DNA of 64,000 nt, taken from positions 62,001 through 126,000 of the forward strand of contig NZ_CP030064.1 of NCBI RefSeq assembly GCF_003990725.2, read 5' to 3'. Positions 1 through 60,853 of the stretch are shown in pieces (position 1 is the first letter of the stretch; each line of letters begins with the position of its first letter). This stretch comes from Halorubrum sp. PV6. GTDB lineage: Archaea > Halobacteriota > Halobacteria > Halobacteriales > Haloferacaceae. The translations under genes and the position numbers were made by a program. The notes beneath the pieces are model-generated. The model did not search any database and had not been told where the DNA came from. It was given only the letters and a program-made list of their open reading frames with translations.

Positions 1-963
1 GGCGTCGACCACGTCGAGTCGGTCGAAGCGGCGATCGATGCGACCGCAGCGTCCGGCGATCCCTACGACGCGGTGTTGCTCGATTTAAACCTTCCCGACT
101 CGCGGGGGTTGGCGACCGTCGAACGCGTGCTCGACGCCGACCCGTCCGCCGCGGTGGTCGTCCTCACCGGCGCGGGCGACGAGGAGATGGGGAAGCGAGC
201 GGTCGCCAGCGGCGCGCAAGACTTCCTGATCAAAGACCACGTCACGCCGCGGGTCCTGGTCAAGACGATCAGCTACGCCGTCGAACGCAAGCGACAGGCC
301 GCGACGCTGGAGCGACAGCGCCGCCGGCTCGCCGCGCTCAACTGGCTCGTCAGACACGACATCCGCAACGACGCGGCGGTCGTCCTCGGCTGGGCGGAGG
401 GGATCGACCCCGAGAACCCGGCGGAGGCGCGCGCGGTCTCGCGCATCGTCGAGGCGGGCGAGAGCATCGTCGCGTCGACGGAGTCCGCCGGCGCACTCCT
501 CGAGGCGCTCGACGGCGACGGGGACGCGCTCGTCTCGGTCGTCCTGAACGACATCGTCGAAGAGGAGGTAGACCGGCTCGAACGACGCCACGAGGGCGTC
601 CGGACGGCGGTCGGCGGCCTCGACGACACGGTCGTCACTCGGGCCGACCGATTCCTCGGCGTCGTCGTCCGGAACCTCCTCGACAACGCGGTCGTCCACA
701 ACGGCGCCGACGCCCCCGAGGTGACCGTCGACGTCCGCGAACGCGAGGAGACGGTGGTCATCGAGGTTGGCGACAACGGCGCCGGGATGCCAGAGCGAGT
801 TCGGCGCGTGGTCGCCGAGGCGGACGACCCGACCGACCTCACCGACGTCGGCCTCGGCCTCTTCCTCGTCGGAACGTTCGTCGAGCGGTACGGCGGGACT
901 CTCTCCGTCGAGGCCGATCCCGACTCAGGGACGCGCGTCCGAGTCACGCTCGAACGGGCTTAA
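1..963 (+). CDS. Response-regulator receiver / histidine kinase hybrid (5' partial)
   Basis: The reading frame is open from the first base, so the N-terminus lies outside the window. The first ~95 residues look like the end of a receiver domain: a hydrophobic strand ends in the phosphoacceptor region (LLDLNLPDSRGL), followed by the VVVLTG strand and a conserved lysine in FLIKD. Next comes a dimerisation helix with an H-box-like RHDIRND, then an HATPase_c domain with N box (NLLDNAVVHN), G1 box (DNGAGMP) and G2 box (GLGLFLV). There are no membrane segments, so this is a soluble sensor kinase of the kind haloarchaea have in large numbers. The signal is unknown. The gene runs straight into the repeat zone beyond its stop codon. 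Confidence 0.88.
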   Translation, partial: GVDHVESVEAAIDATAASGDPYDAVLLDLNLPDSRGLATVERVLDADPSAAVVVLTGAGDEEMGKRAVASGAQDFLIKDHVTPRVLVKTISYAVERKRQAATLERQRRRLAALNWLVRHDIRNDAAVVLGWAEGIDPENPAEARAVSRIVEAGESIVASTESAGALLEALDGDGDALVSVVLNDIVEEEVDRLERRHEGVRTAVGGLDDTVVTRADRFLGVVVRNLLDNAVVHNGADAPEVTVDVREREETVVIEVGDNGAGMPERVRRVVAEADDPTDLTDVGLGLFLVGTFVERYGGTLSVEADPDSGTRVRVTLERA

Positions 964-974
964 AAACGGCCCCG

Positions 975-1201
975 CGCGCTCCGCTGCGCGCGACTCGTCT
1001 GGTTCAGAACCCGCTCGGCGTCGTTTCTGCACCTCTTCACTTCGGTCGTCGCCGCAGAATATGCCGCCTCCCGGATTTGAACTTCCGAAAGACTCGCTTC
1101 GCTCGTCTTTCGACTTCCCGCTCGCTCCGCTCGCGGGAACGGGGATTGCCCGATCTTCGATTGAGTTTCTACTACTCACGTGGAAACCGCGTCGAAATAG
1201 G
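975..1201. repeat. Older, diverged units of the tRNA-Phe 3'-end repeat
   Basis: Positions 975-1060 match the second part of the 122-bp unit found at 1202-1567, with several substitutions. A new unit begins at 1061 with the same tRNA-Phe 3'-end core (ATGCCGCCTCCCGGATTT on the plus strand) but is 141 bp long and has a different middle. That middle holds a perfect 8-bp hairpin (CGAAAGAC ... GTCTTTCG, about 1085-1111). It also holds a stretch near 1139-1170 that resembles the tRNA-Phe anticodon arm, possibly a decayed tRNA copy. No protein gene is credible here. Confidence 0.75.
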
Positions 1202-1567
1202 ATGCCGCCTCCCGGATTTAAACCTCGCCGAGACGTGCTCGATCCGCTGCGCGCGACTCGTCTGGTTCAGAATCCACTCGGCGTCGTTTCTGCGCCTCCT
1301 CACTTCGTTCGTCGCCGCAGAATATGCCGCCTCCCGGATTTAAACCTCGCCGAGACGTGCTCGATCCGCTGCGCGCGACTCGTCTGGTTCAGAATCCACT
1401 CGGCGTCGTTTCTGCGCCTCCTCACTTCGTTCGTCGCCGCAGAATATGCCGCCTCCCGGATTTAAACCTCGCCGAGACGTGCTCGATCCGCTGCGCGCGA
1501 CTCGTCTGGTTCAGAATCCACTCGGCGTCGTTTCTGCGCCTCCTCACTTCGTTCGTCGCCGCAGAAT
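1202..1567. repeat. Three identical 122-bp tandem units carrying the tRNA-Phe 3' end
   Basis: Units start at 1202, 1324 and 1446, and the three copies appear identical base for base. Each begins with the complement of the last ~22 bases of tRNA-Phe (acceptor 3' strand plus T-arm), with one change in the T-loop (TTAAACC for TTGAACC). A spacer follows that includes a degenerate inverted T-arm (GGTTCAGAATCC). The array abuts the intact tRNA-Phe gene, on the 3' side of the tRNA. The repeated reading frames across it are by-products of the repetition. Confidence 0.95.
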
Positions 1568-1758: not shown

Positions 1759-1926
1759 CGCGGTGTCGCTCGCAGCAGCAGAGTGGGACCGCCCGGATTC
1801 GAACCGAAACCGAACGTGCTCGCTCCGCCGTCGCTGCGCGCGTCCGGTAGGGTTCGAATCCGATCCACGGCTGCTGCTCGCGGTGTCGCTCGCAGCAGCA
1901 GAATGGGACCGCCCGGATTCGAACCG
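1759..1926. repeat. Direct repeat (48 bp, 120-bp spacing) including the tRNA-Pro 3' end
   Basis: Positions 1759-1806 and 1879-1926 are the same apart from one base. Each copy contains a G/C-rich stretch (CGGTGTCGCTCGCAGCAGCAG) followed by the complement of the last 23 bases of tRNA-Pro. Only the copy at higher coordinates continues into an intact tRNA. Between them (about 1794-1861) lies an inverted T-arm (GGATTCGAACC ... GGTTCGAATCC). The spacer shares blocks with the tRNA-Phe unit (ACGTGCTCG and CTGCGCGCG in the same order), so the two arrays look related. Confidence 0.85.
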
Positions 1927-2075: not shown

Positions 2076-4130
2076 TCACTCCTCGTCGTCGCGAAGTTCG
2101 AGGTCGGCGACGATCTGGTACGGGTCGGTCCCCTTGCGGATCGCGTCGAGCATGAAGAACGCCTCGTCGGGCGCGAGGAAGTGTCTCGTGATCCCGCGGC
2201 CGAGCGGCGTCGGAGAGAAACCGTCGATGAACTCCCACTCCAACAGCTTCCCGATCGCGTGTTTCGTCGGCACTTCGCCGATCATCCGGTCGTTGAGCCG
2301 CTTCGCCTTCTTGCCCGCGACGACGATGTTCGCCAGCGTCTCCTCGACCGCGGCGGTCTCGTCGTAGTGCGTCGCCACGTCCTCCATTTCGCCTTTAAGC
2401 AGGGTGAACGCCACCTCGTCTTCGGTGCGGTCCATCGAGTTGTGATAGACGCCGTCGGGTTCGACGAGGAGGTAGACGCGCCCGCGGTCGTGGTAGTCCG
2501 GGCGCCCCGCTCGCCCGAGCATCTGGGAGAACTCCTGGACCGAGAGCCACTCGATGCCCATCGCCAGCGAGTCGAAGATGACCTGCGAGGCGGGGAAATC
2601 GACGCCAGCCGCGAGCGCCGCGGTGGTGACGACCGCCGAGAGGTCCTGATCCCCGAACATGCGCTCGACCTTCTTCCGCCGACCGTAGTCGAGGCCGGCG
2701 TGGTACGGCGCGGAGTCGTATCGGAGCTTCCGGCTGATCTCGTGACAGCGCCGCCGGGAGTTGGTGAAGATGATCGTCTGCCCGCGGTACCCCTTCGACG
2801 ACTTCGTGTCGAACTCGCGTTTCACGAGTTTGTCGGCGATCTGCGCCTTCTCGCGGCTGTCAGCGAAGGTGACGTGGCGCTCGATTGGGACCGGCCGCTC
2901 CTCGTACTCGATCAGCGTCGCGCGGAGGCGCTCGGCGAGCCACTCGGGGTTCCCGACGGTCGCGGAGAGGTAGACGAACTGCGTCCCGTCGTATCCCGAG
3001 TGGGTTCGCATCCGCTCTTCGCTGTAGTATTTCAGCCGCGAGATGAGTCCGTCGAGGCGGTGGCCGCGCTCGCCCTCCTTCAGCGTGTGGACCTCGTCGA
3101 TGACGACGGTGCCGACGTCGCCCAGGTCCTTTCCGGTCCGGAGCGCGTGGTCGATCCCCTCGTAGGTGCCGACGATCACGTCGGCGTTCGGGTCGAAGCG
3201 GTTGCCGTCGTCGTTCACCCGCGAGGAGCCGACGCGGATCGAGACGTTCAGGAGGTCGCCGTAGCGGTCCCTGAAATCCTCGTGTTTCTGGTTTGCGAGC
3301 GCGACGAGCGGCACCAAAAAGAGGAGCTTCCCGTTCCCTTGTAGCGCGCGGTTGATCCCCGTCAACTCGCCGACGAGGGTCTTGCCGGTCGCGGTGGCGC
3401 TCACCACGAGTTGGTCGTCGCCGTTTAAGAGGCCGTTCCGGACGGAGAGGCTCTGTACGGGGAGCAACTCCTCGAAGCGCCCCTGGACGTGCGCCGAGAG
3501 GTCCGGGTGCAGGTCCAGGTCCTCGGTCCGCACCGGAGAGATGTCGTCGACGTTCGCGGAGACCTCGTCGTACTTGGTGAGGTCGGGGTCGAGCCCGCCC
3601 TGCAGGAGATTGATTATCCGATTTAAATCGCCCGACTCGTACAGTAACTCCTCTAATCGCTCTTCGGCGGCGCCCGTGAACTCGCCTTTATACGAGAGCT
3701 CTCGCTCCAACTCCCGCCGAGCGCAGTCGCGGCAGATCAGCTCGTCGTTGTGTTCGACCGCGCTCTCGCTCGTGATCGGTCCGTATCGGCCGTCGTTCGC
3801 ACAGCGCCGGCAGGTCCGGACGGCCGTCGCCTCCAGCTGGTAGCCGTCGAGCATCGCCTTCAGCCGCGCGCGGTTCTCCGGCGAGGTCTGCTCGGAGATG
3901 CGGATCCGGGCGGCGGCGCGGGCGAGGTCGACGAACTCGTCGGGCTGGCGAGGCTGGTCCTCGCCGTCGCGGGTCACGCGGAACCGCCCCGGCCGCGGCC
4001 CTGCGCTGGTCTCCTTGAGTTCGAGTCGCCCGCGGAGCACCCGGTTCCCGTCGCGCGTGGCGACGACCGTGTAATCGCTCCGCGCCTCGTGGAGGAACAG
4101 CGTCTCGACCTCGGCCAACTGCTGTGACAC
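2076..4130 (-). CDS. Ski2-like DEAD/DEAH-box helicase with zinc-binding cysteines
   Basis: A 684-residue superfamily 2 helicase. The N-terminal ~220 residues carry two CxxC pairs (Cys107/110 and Cys133/136) that probably bind zinc. The helicase core follows: Walker A SATATGKT (244-251), the DEVH box (345-348), a SAT motif, and motif VI GRAGRP in the second RecA domain. This arrangement matches the haloarchaeal helicases related to Hel308/Ski2. It probably unwinds RNA or DNA in the cytoplasm; the exact substrate cannot be told from sequence. The gene stands alone, between tRNA-Pro and the L10e gene. Confidence 0.88.
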   Translation of the reverse strand: MSQQLAEVETLFLHEARSDYTVVATRDGNRVLRGRLELKETSAGPRPGRFRVTRDGEDQPRQPDEFVDLARAAARIRISEQTSPENRARLKAMLDGYQLEATAVRTCRRCANDGRYGPITSESAVEHNDELICRDCARRELERELSYKGEFTGAAEERLEELLYESGDLNRIINLLQGGLDPDLTKYDEVSANVDDISPVRTEDLDLHPDLSAHVQGRFEELLPVQSLSVRNGLLNGDDQLVVSATATGKTLVGELTGINRALQGNGKLLFLVPLVALANQKHEDFRDRYGDLLNVSIRVGSSRVNDDGNRFDPNADVIVGTYEGIDHALRTGKDLGDVGTVVIDEVHTLKEGERGHRLDGLISRLKYYSEERMRTHSGYDGTQFVYLSATVGNPEWLAERLRATLIEYEERPVPIERHVTFADSREKAQIADKLVKREFDTKSSKGYRGQTIIFTNSRRRCHEISRKLRYDSAPYHAGLDYGRRKKVERMFGDQDLSAVVTTAALAAGVDFPASQVIFDSLAMGIEWLSVQEFSQMLGRAGRPDYHDRGRVYLLVEPDGVYHNSMDRTEDEVAFTLLKGEMEDVATHYDETAAVEETLANIVVAGKKAKRLNDRMIGEVPTKHAIGKLLEWEFIDGFSPTPLGRGITRHFLAPDEAFFMLDAIRKGTDPYQIVADLELRDDEE

Positions 4131-54696: not shown

Positions 54697-54769
54697 GCCC
54701 GGATGGTGTAGTGGCCCATCATACGACCCTGTCACGGTCGTGACGCGGGTTCAAATCCCGCTCCGGGCG
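54697..54769 (+). tRNA. tRNA-Asp (GTC), copy 1
   Basis: A 73-nt tRNA. Acceptor GCCCGGA / TCCGGGC, discriminator G. Anticodon stem CGACC/GGTCG encloses the loop CTGTCAC, anticodon GTC. T-arm GCGGGTTCAAATCCCGC. CCA not encoded. A TATA box lies about 30 bp upstream. It is followed after 30 bp by a second, identical tRNA. Confidence 0.97.
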
Positions 54770-54799
54770 TCCCCACGTTTCCGGGGTGAGTCGCTGTTT

Positions 54800-54872
54800 G
54801 CCCGGATGGTGTAGTGGCCCATCATACGACCCTGTCACGGTCGTGACGCGGGTTCAAATCCCGCTCCGGGCG
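54800..54872 (+). tRNA. tRNA-Asp (GTC), copy 2
   Basis: Identical to the tRNA at 54697-54769 and offset by 103 bp. There is no separate TATA box in the 30-bp gap, so both are probably cut from one transcript. Confidence 0.97.
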
Positions 54873-55009
54873 TTTCTGTCACTGCCAACCGACGAGCGAA
54901 GCGAGCCGACACCGTCGGCGACGAACTCCTGCTCAGGGATTTGAATCTGAGGACGAGCGAACGCAGCGAGCGAAGTCCTCCGGGTTCAAATCCCGCTCCG
55001 GGCGTTTCT
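54873..55009 (+). repeat. tRNA-Asp 3'-end copy behind the tandem pair
   Basis: Positions 54981-55009 repeat 29 bases of the second tRNA-Asp end plus trailer (CGGGTTCAAATCCCGCTCCG then GGCGTTTCT). The spacer (54873-54980) contains an inverted T-arm remnant (GGGATTTGAATCT) and several GAGCGAAGCGAG-type stretches. Same design as at tRNA-Phe, -Pro and -Arg. Confidence 0.85.
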
Positions 55010-58134: not shown

Positions 58135-58472
58135 ACGCGTACCTCCTCGGTTGTCGAGTCCGCGCATAAGCGTTGTCCTTGCTGCGATCTCGCGGCCGCG
58201 CTCGTGTCCGCTTTCGGCCCGCTCCGGGGCGCGTTCGCCAATCGAGTCCGCGGCGTCGCCGTCGCGGATCGGGGTTCGGTCATGTCGATCCCTCGGGCCC
58301 CCTCGATACAAAAGGTGTGCAATCTCACTCGGGGTTTCACGTCCCTGCGCGTCCGGCGCTCGACGCTCTGTCAACCGTGCGGAGCCGACCCCCTTCGCGC
58401 CGCATGCGACCACCCGCCACGCGGCCTCCGTACCGTAACCGTCTTAAGTTCTACCGCGGTACGTTTGCTTGA
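58135..58472. other. Intergenic region with two opposite promoters
   Basis: Contains the minus-strand TATA box of the RPA gene (GCTTATGCG, about 58164-58172) and, near its right end, the TATA-like CTTAAGTT (58443-58450) about 26 bp before tRNA-Arg. I see no gene between them. Confidence 0.55.
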
Positions 58473-58545
58473 GTCCTGGTAGGGTAGTGGACTATCCTCT
58501 TGGCTTGCGGAGCCAGGGACCGGAGTTCAAATCTCCGTCAGGACG
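58473..58545 (+). tRNA. tRNA-Arg (GCG)
   Basis: A 73-nt tRNA. Acceptor GTCCTGG / TCAGGAC (last pair G-U), discriminator G. Anticodon stem TTGGC/GCCAG encloses the loop TTGCGGA, anticodon GCG (Arg, CGC codons). T-arm CGGAGTTCAAATCTCCG. No CCA encoded. TATA box at 58443-58450. Confidence 0.95.
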
Positions 58546-58840
58546 TTTTCGGATGCACCAAACGGCGAGCATCGCGAGCCGTGCGTGCATCCGAAAACGC
58601 CGCGGAGATTTGTGCAGGAAAGTCGCAGCGGCCGAGCGTAGCGAGACCGGAGGTCTCGCAGGCAGCCGGCGCGAAGCGCCGGCAACGAAGCGAGGCCGAC
58701 CGTCTTTCCGAGTTCAAATCTCCGTCAGGACGCTCACTTTGCGGCTCTCTCACTTCGTTCGGGAGCCGCTGCGTTCGGTCCTGACGTGCCTCACGCTCGC
58801 TTCGCTCGCGTGAGACTCCGTCAGGACGTTTTCGGATGCA
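58546..58840 (+). repeat. tRNA-Arg 3'-end copies, direct and inverted
   Basis: Two direct copies of the tRNA end: 58710-58732 (23 bases, T-arm to discriminator) and 58815-58840 (acceptor strand plus 13 bases of trailer, CTCCGTCAGGACG then TTTTCGGATGCAC). An inverted copy of the trailer begins right after the tRNA: GTTTTCGGATGCAC (58545-58558) pairs perfectly with 58585-58598, and beyond it GCGGAGATTTG mirrors the T-arm. A further inverted acceptor piece GTCCTGAC lies near 58779. Short GAGCG(A/T)AGCGAG stretches fill the gaps. Confidence 0.85.
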
Positions 58841-58918
58841 CTATCAGGTTGTTCTCGGACACACCAGCCACGGCCAGCACCGCACGTAGGAGATTCTACT
58901 ACGCGCACGGCTGTTTGG

Positions 58919-58930
58919 CATTTATATACC
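58919..58930. promoter_or_regulatory. Orphan TATA-like element
   Basis: CATTTATATACC lies in the 3' region between tRNA-Arg and the antiporter gene. It reads as a TATA box on either strand but no gene starts at the right distance. It could drive a short RNA, either across the tRNA-end copies (minus) or antisense to the antiporter end (plus). Confidence 0.35.
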
Positions 58931-58996
58931 GTTACCTGTGTTTCGCTCCGACACTTCCTTGTTCACTCTGCAAACACACGACCCCGTCTCGCCGCC

Positions 58997-60853
58997 TCAA
59001 TCGTGCGGATGGAACCGCTCCATCGCGCGCTTGACTGCGGCCGAGTCGCCGATGAAGGTGACGTGATCGCCGTACTCTAACACGCTGTCCGCCGACGGCA
59101 CGTTATTCTCGCCGTCACGACTGACGACGGCGACGAAGGCGCCGTCCGGAATCTTCGCGTTGAGGTCGCGGATCGTCTTCCCCGCGAGGTTCTCCGCCGT
59201 CACCTCGACCTCCTGAACGTCGTGGCTGTCGCCCAGTTCGTTCATCCAGTGTGTGATCGCCGGCCGCTCGATCTCGTCGTCGATGGCGACCGCCGTCGCC
59301 GTCGGGGAGTCGATCGCCGTCACGCCGATGCTGTCGAAGGCGTCGGTGTTCTCCGAGTCGTTCACCCGCGAGTACACCGCCTCGATGTCGAACTTCGTTA
59401 TCGCGAGCTGGCACGTGAGGAGGTTGATGTCGTCGTCCGCGGTCACCGTGATCACGCGCTTTGCGTCCTCGATGCCCGCGCTCCGGAGCGTCTCCGTGTC
59501 GCTCCCGTCGCCTTCGTAGACGGTGAACCCCTCCGAGCGCGCCCGCTCGACCACTTCGTCGTCCATCTCGACGATGACGACGTACTCTCCGCGCCGCTCC
59601 AGTCGTGTGGCGAGCGCCTGGCCGACCCGGCCGCCGCCGATGATTATCGTGCGCATTGGTGACACTCCAAGGACGTTGCCGATCTGCTTTGCCAGCCCCG
59701 CTTCGATCGCGACCGTCGCGAAGATGACGGCGAACACCGTCCCGACCAACAGCTCGCCCGCCGCCACGTTCCCGGCGAGTTCGAGTTCGATGGCGAACAG
59801 TGTGGCCACGCTCGCCGGAATGATCCCTCGGGGGCCGACGCCGGCGATGAACAGCCGCTCCGGCCAGGTGAACCGCTCGACGCCGGCGGTCGCGATCAGC
59901 GCGCCGAGCGGCCGGAGGACGAGCATGATGACGAGGACGAGCGCGATCGCGCCGACCCCGAGCGCCGCGATCGCTTCGACGTCTATCAGCGCGGCCAGCG
60001 AGATGAACACGAACGATAAGACGACGAGCGTCGTGTTCTCCGCGAACCGCTCGATCTCTTCTCTGTTGTCGATGTCGAGGTTGCCGAGCAGGATCCCGCT
60101 CGTCGCCGCAGCCGCGATACCCGCCTCGGCGGCGACGGCCTCGGCGGCCGCGAACGCCCCGACCGCCGCCGCCAACACGAGGAACTGCGAGGCCTGCACG
60201 TCGCGTTCGGGGACGAAGTTGCTGTTCAACAGGTAGTAGATGATGACGGTCGCGAGCACCCCGGCGGCCACCCCGACCCCGAGCCGCTGGAGAAACGACA
60301 GCACGGTCGCCGGGACGCCCAGATCGTCAAGCAACAGCGTCTCGAAGATCACCACGGCGACGATCGCGGCCGTCACGTCGTTGACGATCCCCTCCGTCTC
60401 CAGTGCGGTCGCGACGTGGTCCCTGACCCGCACGACGTTGAGTATCGGCGTGATGACCGTCGGTCCGGTCGCCACCAGCAGCGCCCCGATGAGCAGCGAA
60501 ATATCCCAGCTTGCTCCCTCGAAGAACCGGACCGCCGCCGCCGTTCCGAGGAACATCACGAGGGCGCTCACCGTCACCAAGCGGAGCGACGCCGTCGACG
60601 CGCCGCGGATCCGTTCGATCCGCAGCGCAAACGCCCCCTCGAAGACGATGATCGCGACGCTGATCCCGACGATGATCTCCAGGCCGCTCCCAAACGTGTC
60701 CAGCGTTACGAGCCCCAACACCTCCGGTCCCAGCACGACGCCGATGAGGAGGTAAAAGATGACACTCGGCACCTTCAGACGGTGCGCGACCAACTGGACG
60801 ACGAGTCCCGACACGAGGATCGCCGCGATGACCGGCAACAGGCTACTGGACAC
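58997..60853 (-). CDS. Cation:proton antiporter with TrkA-type regulatory domains
   Basis: A 618-residue protein. The first ~390 residues form about twelve membrane helices of the CPA superfamily with ATGPTVITPILNVV and EGIVNDVTAAIVA (the ND pair marks the NhaP/CPA1 type). Then comes an RCK/TrkA-N domain (IIIGGGRVGQALATRLERRG) and a TrkA-C domain at the end. It exchanges Na+ or K+ for H+ across the membrane, gated by a nucleotide. A GTG start at 60853 (VSSSLLPVI) puts the first helix at the N-terminus; the open frame upstream is non-coding. Confidence 0.87.
   Translation of the reverse strand: MSSSLLPVIAAILVSGLVVQLVAHRLKVPSVIFYLLIGVVLGPEVLGLVTLDTFGSGLEIIVGISVAIIVFEGAFALRIERIRGASTASLRLVTVSALVMFLGTAAAVRFFEGASWDISLLIGALLVATGPTVITPILNVVRVRDHVATALETEGIVNDVTAAIVAVVIFETLLLDDLGVPATVLSFLQRLGVGVAAGVLATVIIYYLLNSNFVPERDVQASQFLVLAAAVGAFAAAEAVAAEAGIAAAATSGILLGNLDIDNREEIERFAENTTLVVLSFVFISLAALIDVEAIAALGVGAIALVLVIMLVLRPLGALIATAGVERFTWPERLFIAGVGPRGIIPASVATLFAIELELAGNVAAGELLVGTVFAVIFATVAIEAGLAKQIGNVLGVSPMRTIIIGGGRVGQALATRLERRGEYVVIVEMDDEVVERARSEGFTVYEGDGSDTETLRSAGIEDAKRVITVTADDDINLLTCQLAITKFDIEAVYSRVNDSENTDAFDSIGVTAIDSPTATAVAIDDEIERPAITHWMNELGDSHDVQEVEVTAENLAGKTIRDLNAKIPDGAFVAVVSRDGENNVPSADSVLEYGDHVTFIGDSAAVKRAMERFHPHD

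Follow-up and report, generated by a model that had tools for sequence, protein, structure and literature searches.

Small, gene-less units behind tRNA genes of Halobacteriales that end in a copy of the host tRNA tail

The 3' end of a tRNA-Arg gene in Halorubrum sp. PV6 is followed by its own mirror image and by further direct copies of itself, and the question raised by this locus is what kind of sequence such a trailer is and how it came to carry them. The window analysed is the whole stretch of 64,000 nt (contig NZ_CP030064.1, positions 62,001 to 126,000), and its DNA is haloarchaeal. The trailer was dissected in the window, followed through related genomes, and compared with the trailers of other tRNA genes.

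The tRNA-Arg trailer and other units in the source genome

A perfect inverted repeat at the 3' end of the tRNA-Arg(GCG) gene, noted in an earlier, sequence-only reading, is real and has arms of 15 nt (58544-58558 and 58585-58599) separated by 26 nt; by our own arithmetic, with uniform bases, about 1e-4 perfect 15-bp repeats at such spacing are expected per 3 kb. The complement of the T-arm that was said to continue past the mirror was confirmed as CGGAGATTTG (58603-58612), and the claimed direct copies are present as well. Nucleotides 51-73 of the tRNA (58523-58545), the tail that gets copied, recur exactly over 23 nt at 58710-58732, and 58533-58558 recurs exactly over 26 nt at 58816-58841. 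The Arg trailer is made up of two and a bit units, A, B and a stump, the first two each closed by the tRNA tail. Unit A (58546-58732, 187 nt) is terminated by the first copy, while unit B is composed of a hairpin (58741-58769), an anti-acceptor strand, GTCCTGAC (58778-58785), a second hairpin (58789-58815) and the 13-nt tail copy 2, CTCCGTCAGGACG (58816-58828). The stump is what remains of HP1 in a further, decayed unit, and is longer in several relatives. The inner part of the Arg unit (58614-58706) belongs to a palindromic repeat dispersed in the genus, with matches of 88-91% in two relatives (G002 and G003) and two weaker matches in the source genome, directly behind tRNA-Gly genes.

Table 1. 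Features of the tRNA-Arg trailer and of other trailers in the window (positions in the 64,000-nt window)
Feature	Position	Strand	Evidence
tRNA-Arg(GCG)	58473..58545	+	ARAGORN, Rfam
HP1 (first hairpin; the inverted repeat noted earlier)	58544..58599	+	repeat search, arm pairing across genomes
anti-T strand CGGAGATTTG, complement of the T-arm in tRNA-Arg and in its copy	58603..58612	+	
HP2, inner part: variant core GGAAAGTCGCAGC..GACCGTCTTTCC flanking the dispersed palindromic insert	58617..58709	+	
tail copy 1 (tRNA-Arg nt 51-73, exact, 23 nt), closing unit A	58710..58732	+	repeat search, weak R1 match
unit B	58733..58828	+	repeat search, covariation
TTTTCGGATGCAC, HP1 stump of a further decayed unit (repeats 13 nt of the first-hairpin start)	58829..58841	+	
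three near-identical units, 122-nt period, behind tRNA-Phe (1569-1642)	1203..1533	-	R1 E 9.3e-14
weaker, diverged further R1 match in the Phe trailer	945..1026	-	R1 E 0.0087
unit behind tRNA-Pro (1904-1974)	1784..1875	-	R1 E 2e-17
unit following the second gene of a tandem tRNA-Asp pair, with a 24-nt tail copy at its end	54923..55004	+	R1 E 3e-4

It had also been proposed that a transcript would fold the tRNA end into a long hairpin. This held for 58473-58620 (-81.7 kcal/mol, z -8.3, no shuffled sequence as low), a segment which stops short of the tail copy at 58710-58732, but not for 58473-58732, where the copied T-arm becomes the partner of the anti-T strand and the tRNA's own T-stem mostly re-forms. 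The further suggestion that HP1 is a terminator or 3'-processing signal of tRNA-Arg is very improbable. A very stable hairpin does lie immediately past N73, and compensatory change preserves it, but it is without a U-run, and conserved structure continues for more than 200 nt beyond it. The conserved, covarying distal hairpin could matter only if transcription ran on beyond HP1, and this, together with the missing U-run, makes a terminator unlikely. Such a role would also leave the tail copies unexplained, and 30 of the 46 tRNAs of the source genome have no tail copy.

Other tRNA genes in the window are followed by units (Table 1). The Pro and Phe trailers form an array on the minus strand (945-1875), with one Pro unit, three Phe units and one diverged unit, and the tandem tRNA-Asp pair plus its unit spans 54697-55004 on the plus strand. 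The covariance model R1 matches the Arg unit weakly, with the correct right end (58594-58732, 17.8 bits, E 0.035; unlisted at E 0.01). In the source genome as a whole, the final 12 nt of the tRNA itself recur, with at most one mismatch, within 600 nt downstream for 16 of 46 tRNAs; upstream the 12-mer was found for 2 of 46, one being the tandem Asp pair, and foreign tRNA tails gave 8 hits in 1886 comparisons of the same test. The bodies of the units are alike across these tRNAs, running from a hairpin through an anti-T strand and a core to the copy, and a GCGAGC..CGCGAGC loop region occurs in the first hairpin of many of them. The dominant core is not universal, as the Gln, Asp and Leu-CAA units have other inner hairpins. 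The tRNA-Tyr unit of the source genome (C1:1711557-1711900) starts with a degenerate piece of tRNA-Tyr, from the anticodon region to the T-stem, and a tRNA-Tyr unit at locus L194 (about 3520-3760) has the same start; this case looks as if the element sat within a second tRNA copy, at the T-stem/T-loop.

Extent of the family, ends of the copied tail, and variable occupancy

The commonest core, AGTCGCGCGCAGCG..GAGCACGTCT, was used as the query in one scan of public genome contigs, and gave at least 120 loci. Among the matches listed, 119 loci are titled archaea and one is a Bacteroidetes MAG, the contig of which carries a tRNA-Val unit of haloarchaeal type and is probably misbinned. At 120 loci, 102 of the 125 core matches listed lie no more than 400 nt downstream of a tRNA on the same strand, and these tRNAs represent at least 27 anticodon types. 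The other matches listed comprise 8 with less than 400 nt of upstream sequence and 15 that do not qualify. A tRNA-like tail follows the core in these 15 also, degenerate in a few, and several of them are preceded by a partial tRNA 3' end, by an intron-containing tRNA missed by ARAGORN, or by an array. At one locus, four tandem tRNA-Asp genes share a single unit behind the last. The core had no match in viral contigs, and a link of the units to viruses was rejected on this account.

The covariance model R1 matches 26 of 30 relatives and, in an even sample of 148 genomes from the phylum searched with stricter filters, 22 of 24 Halobacteriales and none of the 124 others. In four genomes with tRNAs listed, 32 of 39 R1 matches have a tRNA on the same strand no more than 400 nt upstream, counting only matches and tRNAs among those listed. 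Three of the seven other matches listed are 2-16 kb downstream of a same-strand tRNA; only the one in G016 is clearly displaced by an element from the same tRNA, and the one in G020 follows the tail of another tRNA. The trailer units are a family of small, gene-less sequences specific to Halobacteriales.

The ends of the copied tail are sharp. The T-loop could be recognised on both sides in 84 of 102 cases among the matches listed, the other 18 being dropped, and in these 84 the identity between tRNA and copy approaches 1 over nt 52-73 and drops to 0.20 at nt 51 and to about 0.5 past nt 73, where both sides are pyrimidine-rich. The copy, tRNA nt 52-73 and thus 22 nt in length, is exact in 50 of the 84 and has at most one mismatch in 66. 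Within it, the mismatch rate among the matches listed is 0.02 at nt 52-65, 0.07 at nt 66-72 and 0.13 at nt 73 (n = 84); the T-loop filter may flatter nt 53-61, and nt 62-64, which lie outside the filter, also show 0-0.01.

Occupancy differs among relatives. The Arg region was matched in 29 of 30 genomes searched, counting the source genome, and 27 of the 28 matching relatives were inspected, with G010 left out. Unit A is located directly after tRNA-Arg in five genomes of the genus (the source genome, G003, G009, G011 and G015) and in three of other families (G020, G022 and G023). In ten other members of the genus, unit B is placed directly after N73 of tRNA-Arg, and the sequence that follows N73 in those ten follows the copied tail in the five with unit A. 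This displacement behind the copied tail provides a clean comparison of filled and empty sites, but the same pattern would arise if recombination between the direct copies removed a unit cleanly, so that such sites fit loss too. In two relatives with variant tRNA-Arg tails, G021 and G022, the copy has changed likewise, and so has its complement (imperfectly in G022). A minimal tRNA-Arg unit in G027 (L045), which has no R1 match, consists of a short anti-T strand and a tail copy without the core.

Other isotypes are equally variable within the genus. Among the 18 Gln tRNAs taken from 30 loci, nine have an exact copy and nine have no good copy, and in 30 Pro/Phe loci the 21 Pro tRNAs have none to two copies and the 24 Phe tRNAs none to four. 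Where the T-stem of tRNA-Phe in the source genome differs from that of the rest of the genus, the copies there carry the source genome's variant. In 56 arrays of at least two units, some of them nested and hence not independent, and with Arg-GCG left out, the mean number of mismatches to the tRNA was 1.30 for the proximal copy versus 2.89 for the last; the proximal copy was closer in 27 arrays and the last in 8, with 21 ties. Bodies at different tRNAs are up to about 81% identical, each with the tail of its own host. Since identity across tRNAs never exceeds this value, recent jumps are not proven. The best pair of different isotypes in a single genome (Gly-GCC and Met in Halosimplex pelagicum) reaches 79%, and the best in the source genome 63%, on which grounds a fresh jump within a genome was rejected. 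A cross-isotype pair of 100% at L239 was discarded, the ARAGORN call there overlapping a Pro trailer, and the "Ala" tRNA of L193, which carries a Gly-GCC tail, was excluded as evidence.

Covarying hairpins and the fold of the tRNA end

The hairpins of the units covary. In all five unit-A genomes of the genus the HP1 arms are paired at 14 of 14 positions, with up to six double substitutions; in G020, G022 and G023 the pairing is 13, 11 and 10 of 14, the last of which falls inside the background of the arm-pairing search (8-10 of 14). For unit B (14 sequences), 96% of cells are paired and covariation is 0.220 vs 0.098 after shuffling (0 of 500 as high) and at most 0.052 when slid, but its anti-acceptor helix says little because it hardly varies in this set. 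HP2 was assessed with an alignment, A1, of 62 of 69 prepared segments, seven having been omitted by choice (for example, one that contained an N, and units that came second at a locus already represented). In the 62 units the anti-T strand is paired to the T-arm of the copy, and the inner helix alternates between ATCAG/CTGAT, ACCAG/CTGGT and GCCAG/CTGGC. For HP2, 85.9% of cells are paired vs 78.3% when shuffled, with covariation of 0.253 vs 0.127 (0 of 500); sliding gave no more than 0.09. Two T-loop sites, 57 and 59, are variable, and there the anti-T strand agrees with its own copy in 102 of 124 cells, where 2000 permutations gave a mean of 69 and a maximum of 84.

Strand bias and whole folds were examined in 47 of the 67 tRNA-linked matches listed, drawn from 80 of the 120 or more public loci; matches were dropped if the T-loop was unrecognised on one side, if they lay more than 130 nt from the tRNA, or if N was present. 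In 34 of 47 units the sense strand gives the more stable fold, and in 11 the antisense strand does (p 4e-5); 210 flanking control sequences gave a mean difference of -0.4 kcal/mol. This bias favors selection on RNA, and is also compatible with a single DNA strand. In MFE folds of the tRNA alone, the T-stem forms in 42 of 47 cases. When the sequence is cut after the anti-T strand, the T-stem forms in 8, and at least 8 nt of the tRNA tail are paired into the trailer in 38; in complete units the corresponding figures are 33 and 8. As modelled, restoration of the T-stem and the reduced invasion suggest that the copy shields the T-arm against pairing with the anti-T strand. In the same complete folds, the partner of the 5' acceptor strand is the copied tail in 30 of 47 and the genuine tail in 5, and forcing the genuine acceptor pairing costs a median of 5.3 kcal/mol, these energies being those of a single strand, which ignore modification, salt and order of synthesis. 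With the acceptor strand so often predicted to pair with the copy, a "harmless" unit is not simply what folding predicts, and the trailer may affect 3' processing.

Two readings bear directly on these folds. One is that the trailer is a structured RNA under positive selection, an alternative tRNA end kept because it is useful, whether as a tRNase Z processing site, as a switch between folds or because a stable small RNA derives from it. This is possible, and would fit the covariation of HP1, HP2 and unit B, the bias in sense-strand stability, the predicted pairing between acceptor strand and copy (30 of 47 folds), and the mini-tRNA-like shape that the anti-acceptor strand gives to unit B. It does not sit well with the patchiness of the units even within one genus (a good copy at 9 of 18 Gln loci), nor with the decay of the copy's acceptor part, nt 66-73, which at 0.07-0.13 exceeds that of the paired nt 52-65 (0.02, partly owing to the T-loop filter). 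The other reading goes further, and is quite unlikely: the units would be a genome-wide set of second, interchangeable T-arm/acceptor ends, with the 5' acceptor strand choosing the genuine or the copied 3' end and the anti-T hairpin closing the spare one, and would enter tRNA by tRNA through target duplication in a leader-proximal order like that of CRISPR. If it were true, haloarchaeal arrays behind tRNA genes could set tRNA maturation, and might supply spare 3' ends after damage or integration.

Origin of the units and comparison with known systems

The explanation given most weight, with a probability of roughly one half, is that the units are small elements which enter at the 3' ends of tRNA genes, duplicating 22 nt there, and which are tolerated thanks to hairpins that fold on themselves. 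A unit adjoins the tRNA gene on its 3' side and comprises HP1, the anti-T strand, the core hairpin and a copy of nt 52-73 of its host. Insertion at the tRNA 3' end would duplicate the 22-nt target, so that the tRNA stays whole ahead of the unit and the duplicate closes the distal end, and would presumably require an enzyme. The unit would be transcribed together with its tRNA, and selection would keep its RNA self-folded, through HP1 and through pairing of the anti-T strand with the copied T-arm. Units would then be tolerated because the co-transcribed hairpins fold the extra tail away, preventing the duplicate and its complement from invading the real tRNA. New units would arrive beside the tRNA, and older, distal copies would decay. 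Neither a mobile enzyme, an autonomous relative nor a new insertion was found for the units.

A different origin is unlikely, in which the units are remnants of integrated elements and the copies of nt 52-73 are scars of crossovers made by tyrosine integrases in the T-loop. The copied nt 52-73 do come from the 3' part of the host tRNA, as expected for an attachment site, and in the available sections of the literature integrases are described as using the tRNA T-loop/3' end (PMC8371274) and a Haloquadratum provirus in tRNA-Ala as flanked by a 22-nt tRNA duplication (PMC3119063). The bodies, however, are homologous behind at least 27 anticodon types and have a covarying, RNA-like structure, and at about 100-190 nt the units are too small for an integrase gene, and their copies flank no element with one. 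In G016 a genuine element with a Phage_integrase domain lies between a tRNA-Gly gene and its old unit, which accounts for the R1 match 8 kb from that tRNA; the part of the tRNA that this element duplicates runs from about nt 23, and behind that duplication comes the old unit. Several "orphan" units likewise follow a partial tRNA 3' end. Provirus attachment scars were rejected as the main reading on the strength of this element. The element (L264, G016 C1:113050-121900) is about 8 kb long, its integrase lies in two overlapping frames and is possibly broken, and it also encodes an Eco57I-type methylase.

The sites known as attC in integrons are recombined by IntI as a folded single strand. The hairpin of the units has what we take to be a likeness to attC, and the unit, as one DNA strand folded on itself, could act as a recombination site of this kind whose partner would be the tRNA T-loop. 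In alignment A1 the hairpin has two arms, carries GAAC/GTTC at the outer ones and contains spacers that are unpaired and an end loop that varies, and the copy boundary adjoins G53-T54-T55, but neither gene cassettes nor an associated integrase were seen, and the sense-strand bias fits RNA equally well; this origin is highly improbable.

Returning to insertion with a 22-nt duplication, the observations matter beyond this one locus. The family copies the 3' end of each host tRNA and keeps the complement in step across most of an archaeal order. It raises questions that can be tested directly: what enzyme could duplicate exactly 22 nt within tRNA genes, how a pre-tRNA with one to several spare tails folds and matures, and whether to regard the trailers as parasites, spare parts or regulators. 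For annotators, tRNA fragments behind haloarchaeal tRNA genes are often trailer units and not provirus scars.

The tandem repeats behind the tRNA-Tyr gene of E. coli (the tyrT 3' repeats, or rtT RNA) each contain a copy of the tRNA 3' end. The layout of the units is similar to that generally described for these repeats; unlike the repeats, the units are not confined to one Tyr locus and span many isotypes across an order, with their own tails and a covarying anti-T hairpin. A literature search for the tyrT/rtT repeats found no paper. In Rfam, nothing reached the gathering score on a unit, either in the window (58200-59100) or at five loci of the source genome. An earlier description of trailer units was not found in the open-access literature, subscription papers being mostly outside its coverage, and the available text of PMC2841640, PMC4983044, PMC3432209 and PMC3623002 makes no mention of them. 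Within these bounds, open-access literature and Rfam, the family appears not to have been described before.

Several mobile elements of archaea share features with the units, judging from the available parts of the papers cited. Haloarchaeal MITEs, PATEs and small mobile repeats are characterized by terminal repeats or palindromes, with target duplications present or absent (PMC3119063). The units are likewise short, gene-less and rich in palindromes, but are set apart, on that description, by the copy of their own tRNA tail, which the available text does not mention for those repeats. Attachment sites of tyrosine recombinases have in common with the units a direct copy of the tRNA 3' part, but the archaeal tRNA duplications are mostly 40-60 nt and flank kilobase elements with an integrase (PMC8371274). 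Casposons, of the Cas1 family, insert site-specifically at tRNA 3' ends with target duplication and leave the tRNA intact (PMC6977970, PMC4046053), as the units appear to do. Casposon duplications are 14-15 bp, however, and overlap only the last 4-7 nt of the tRNA, and the elements have terminal inverted repeats and a casposase (PMC6977970, PMC4046053); the duplication of the units is 22 nt and wholly within the tRNA, and the units are too short for casposase (Cas1) and PolB genes. As far as these accounts go, casposons and tRNA integrases share a principle with the units but fail on length or genes. Within the open-access literature and Rfam, none of the known kinds considered fits the trailer-unit family.
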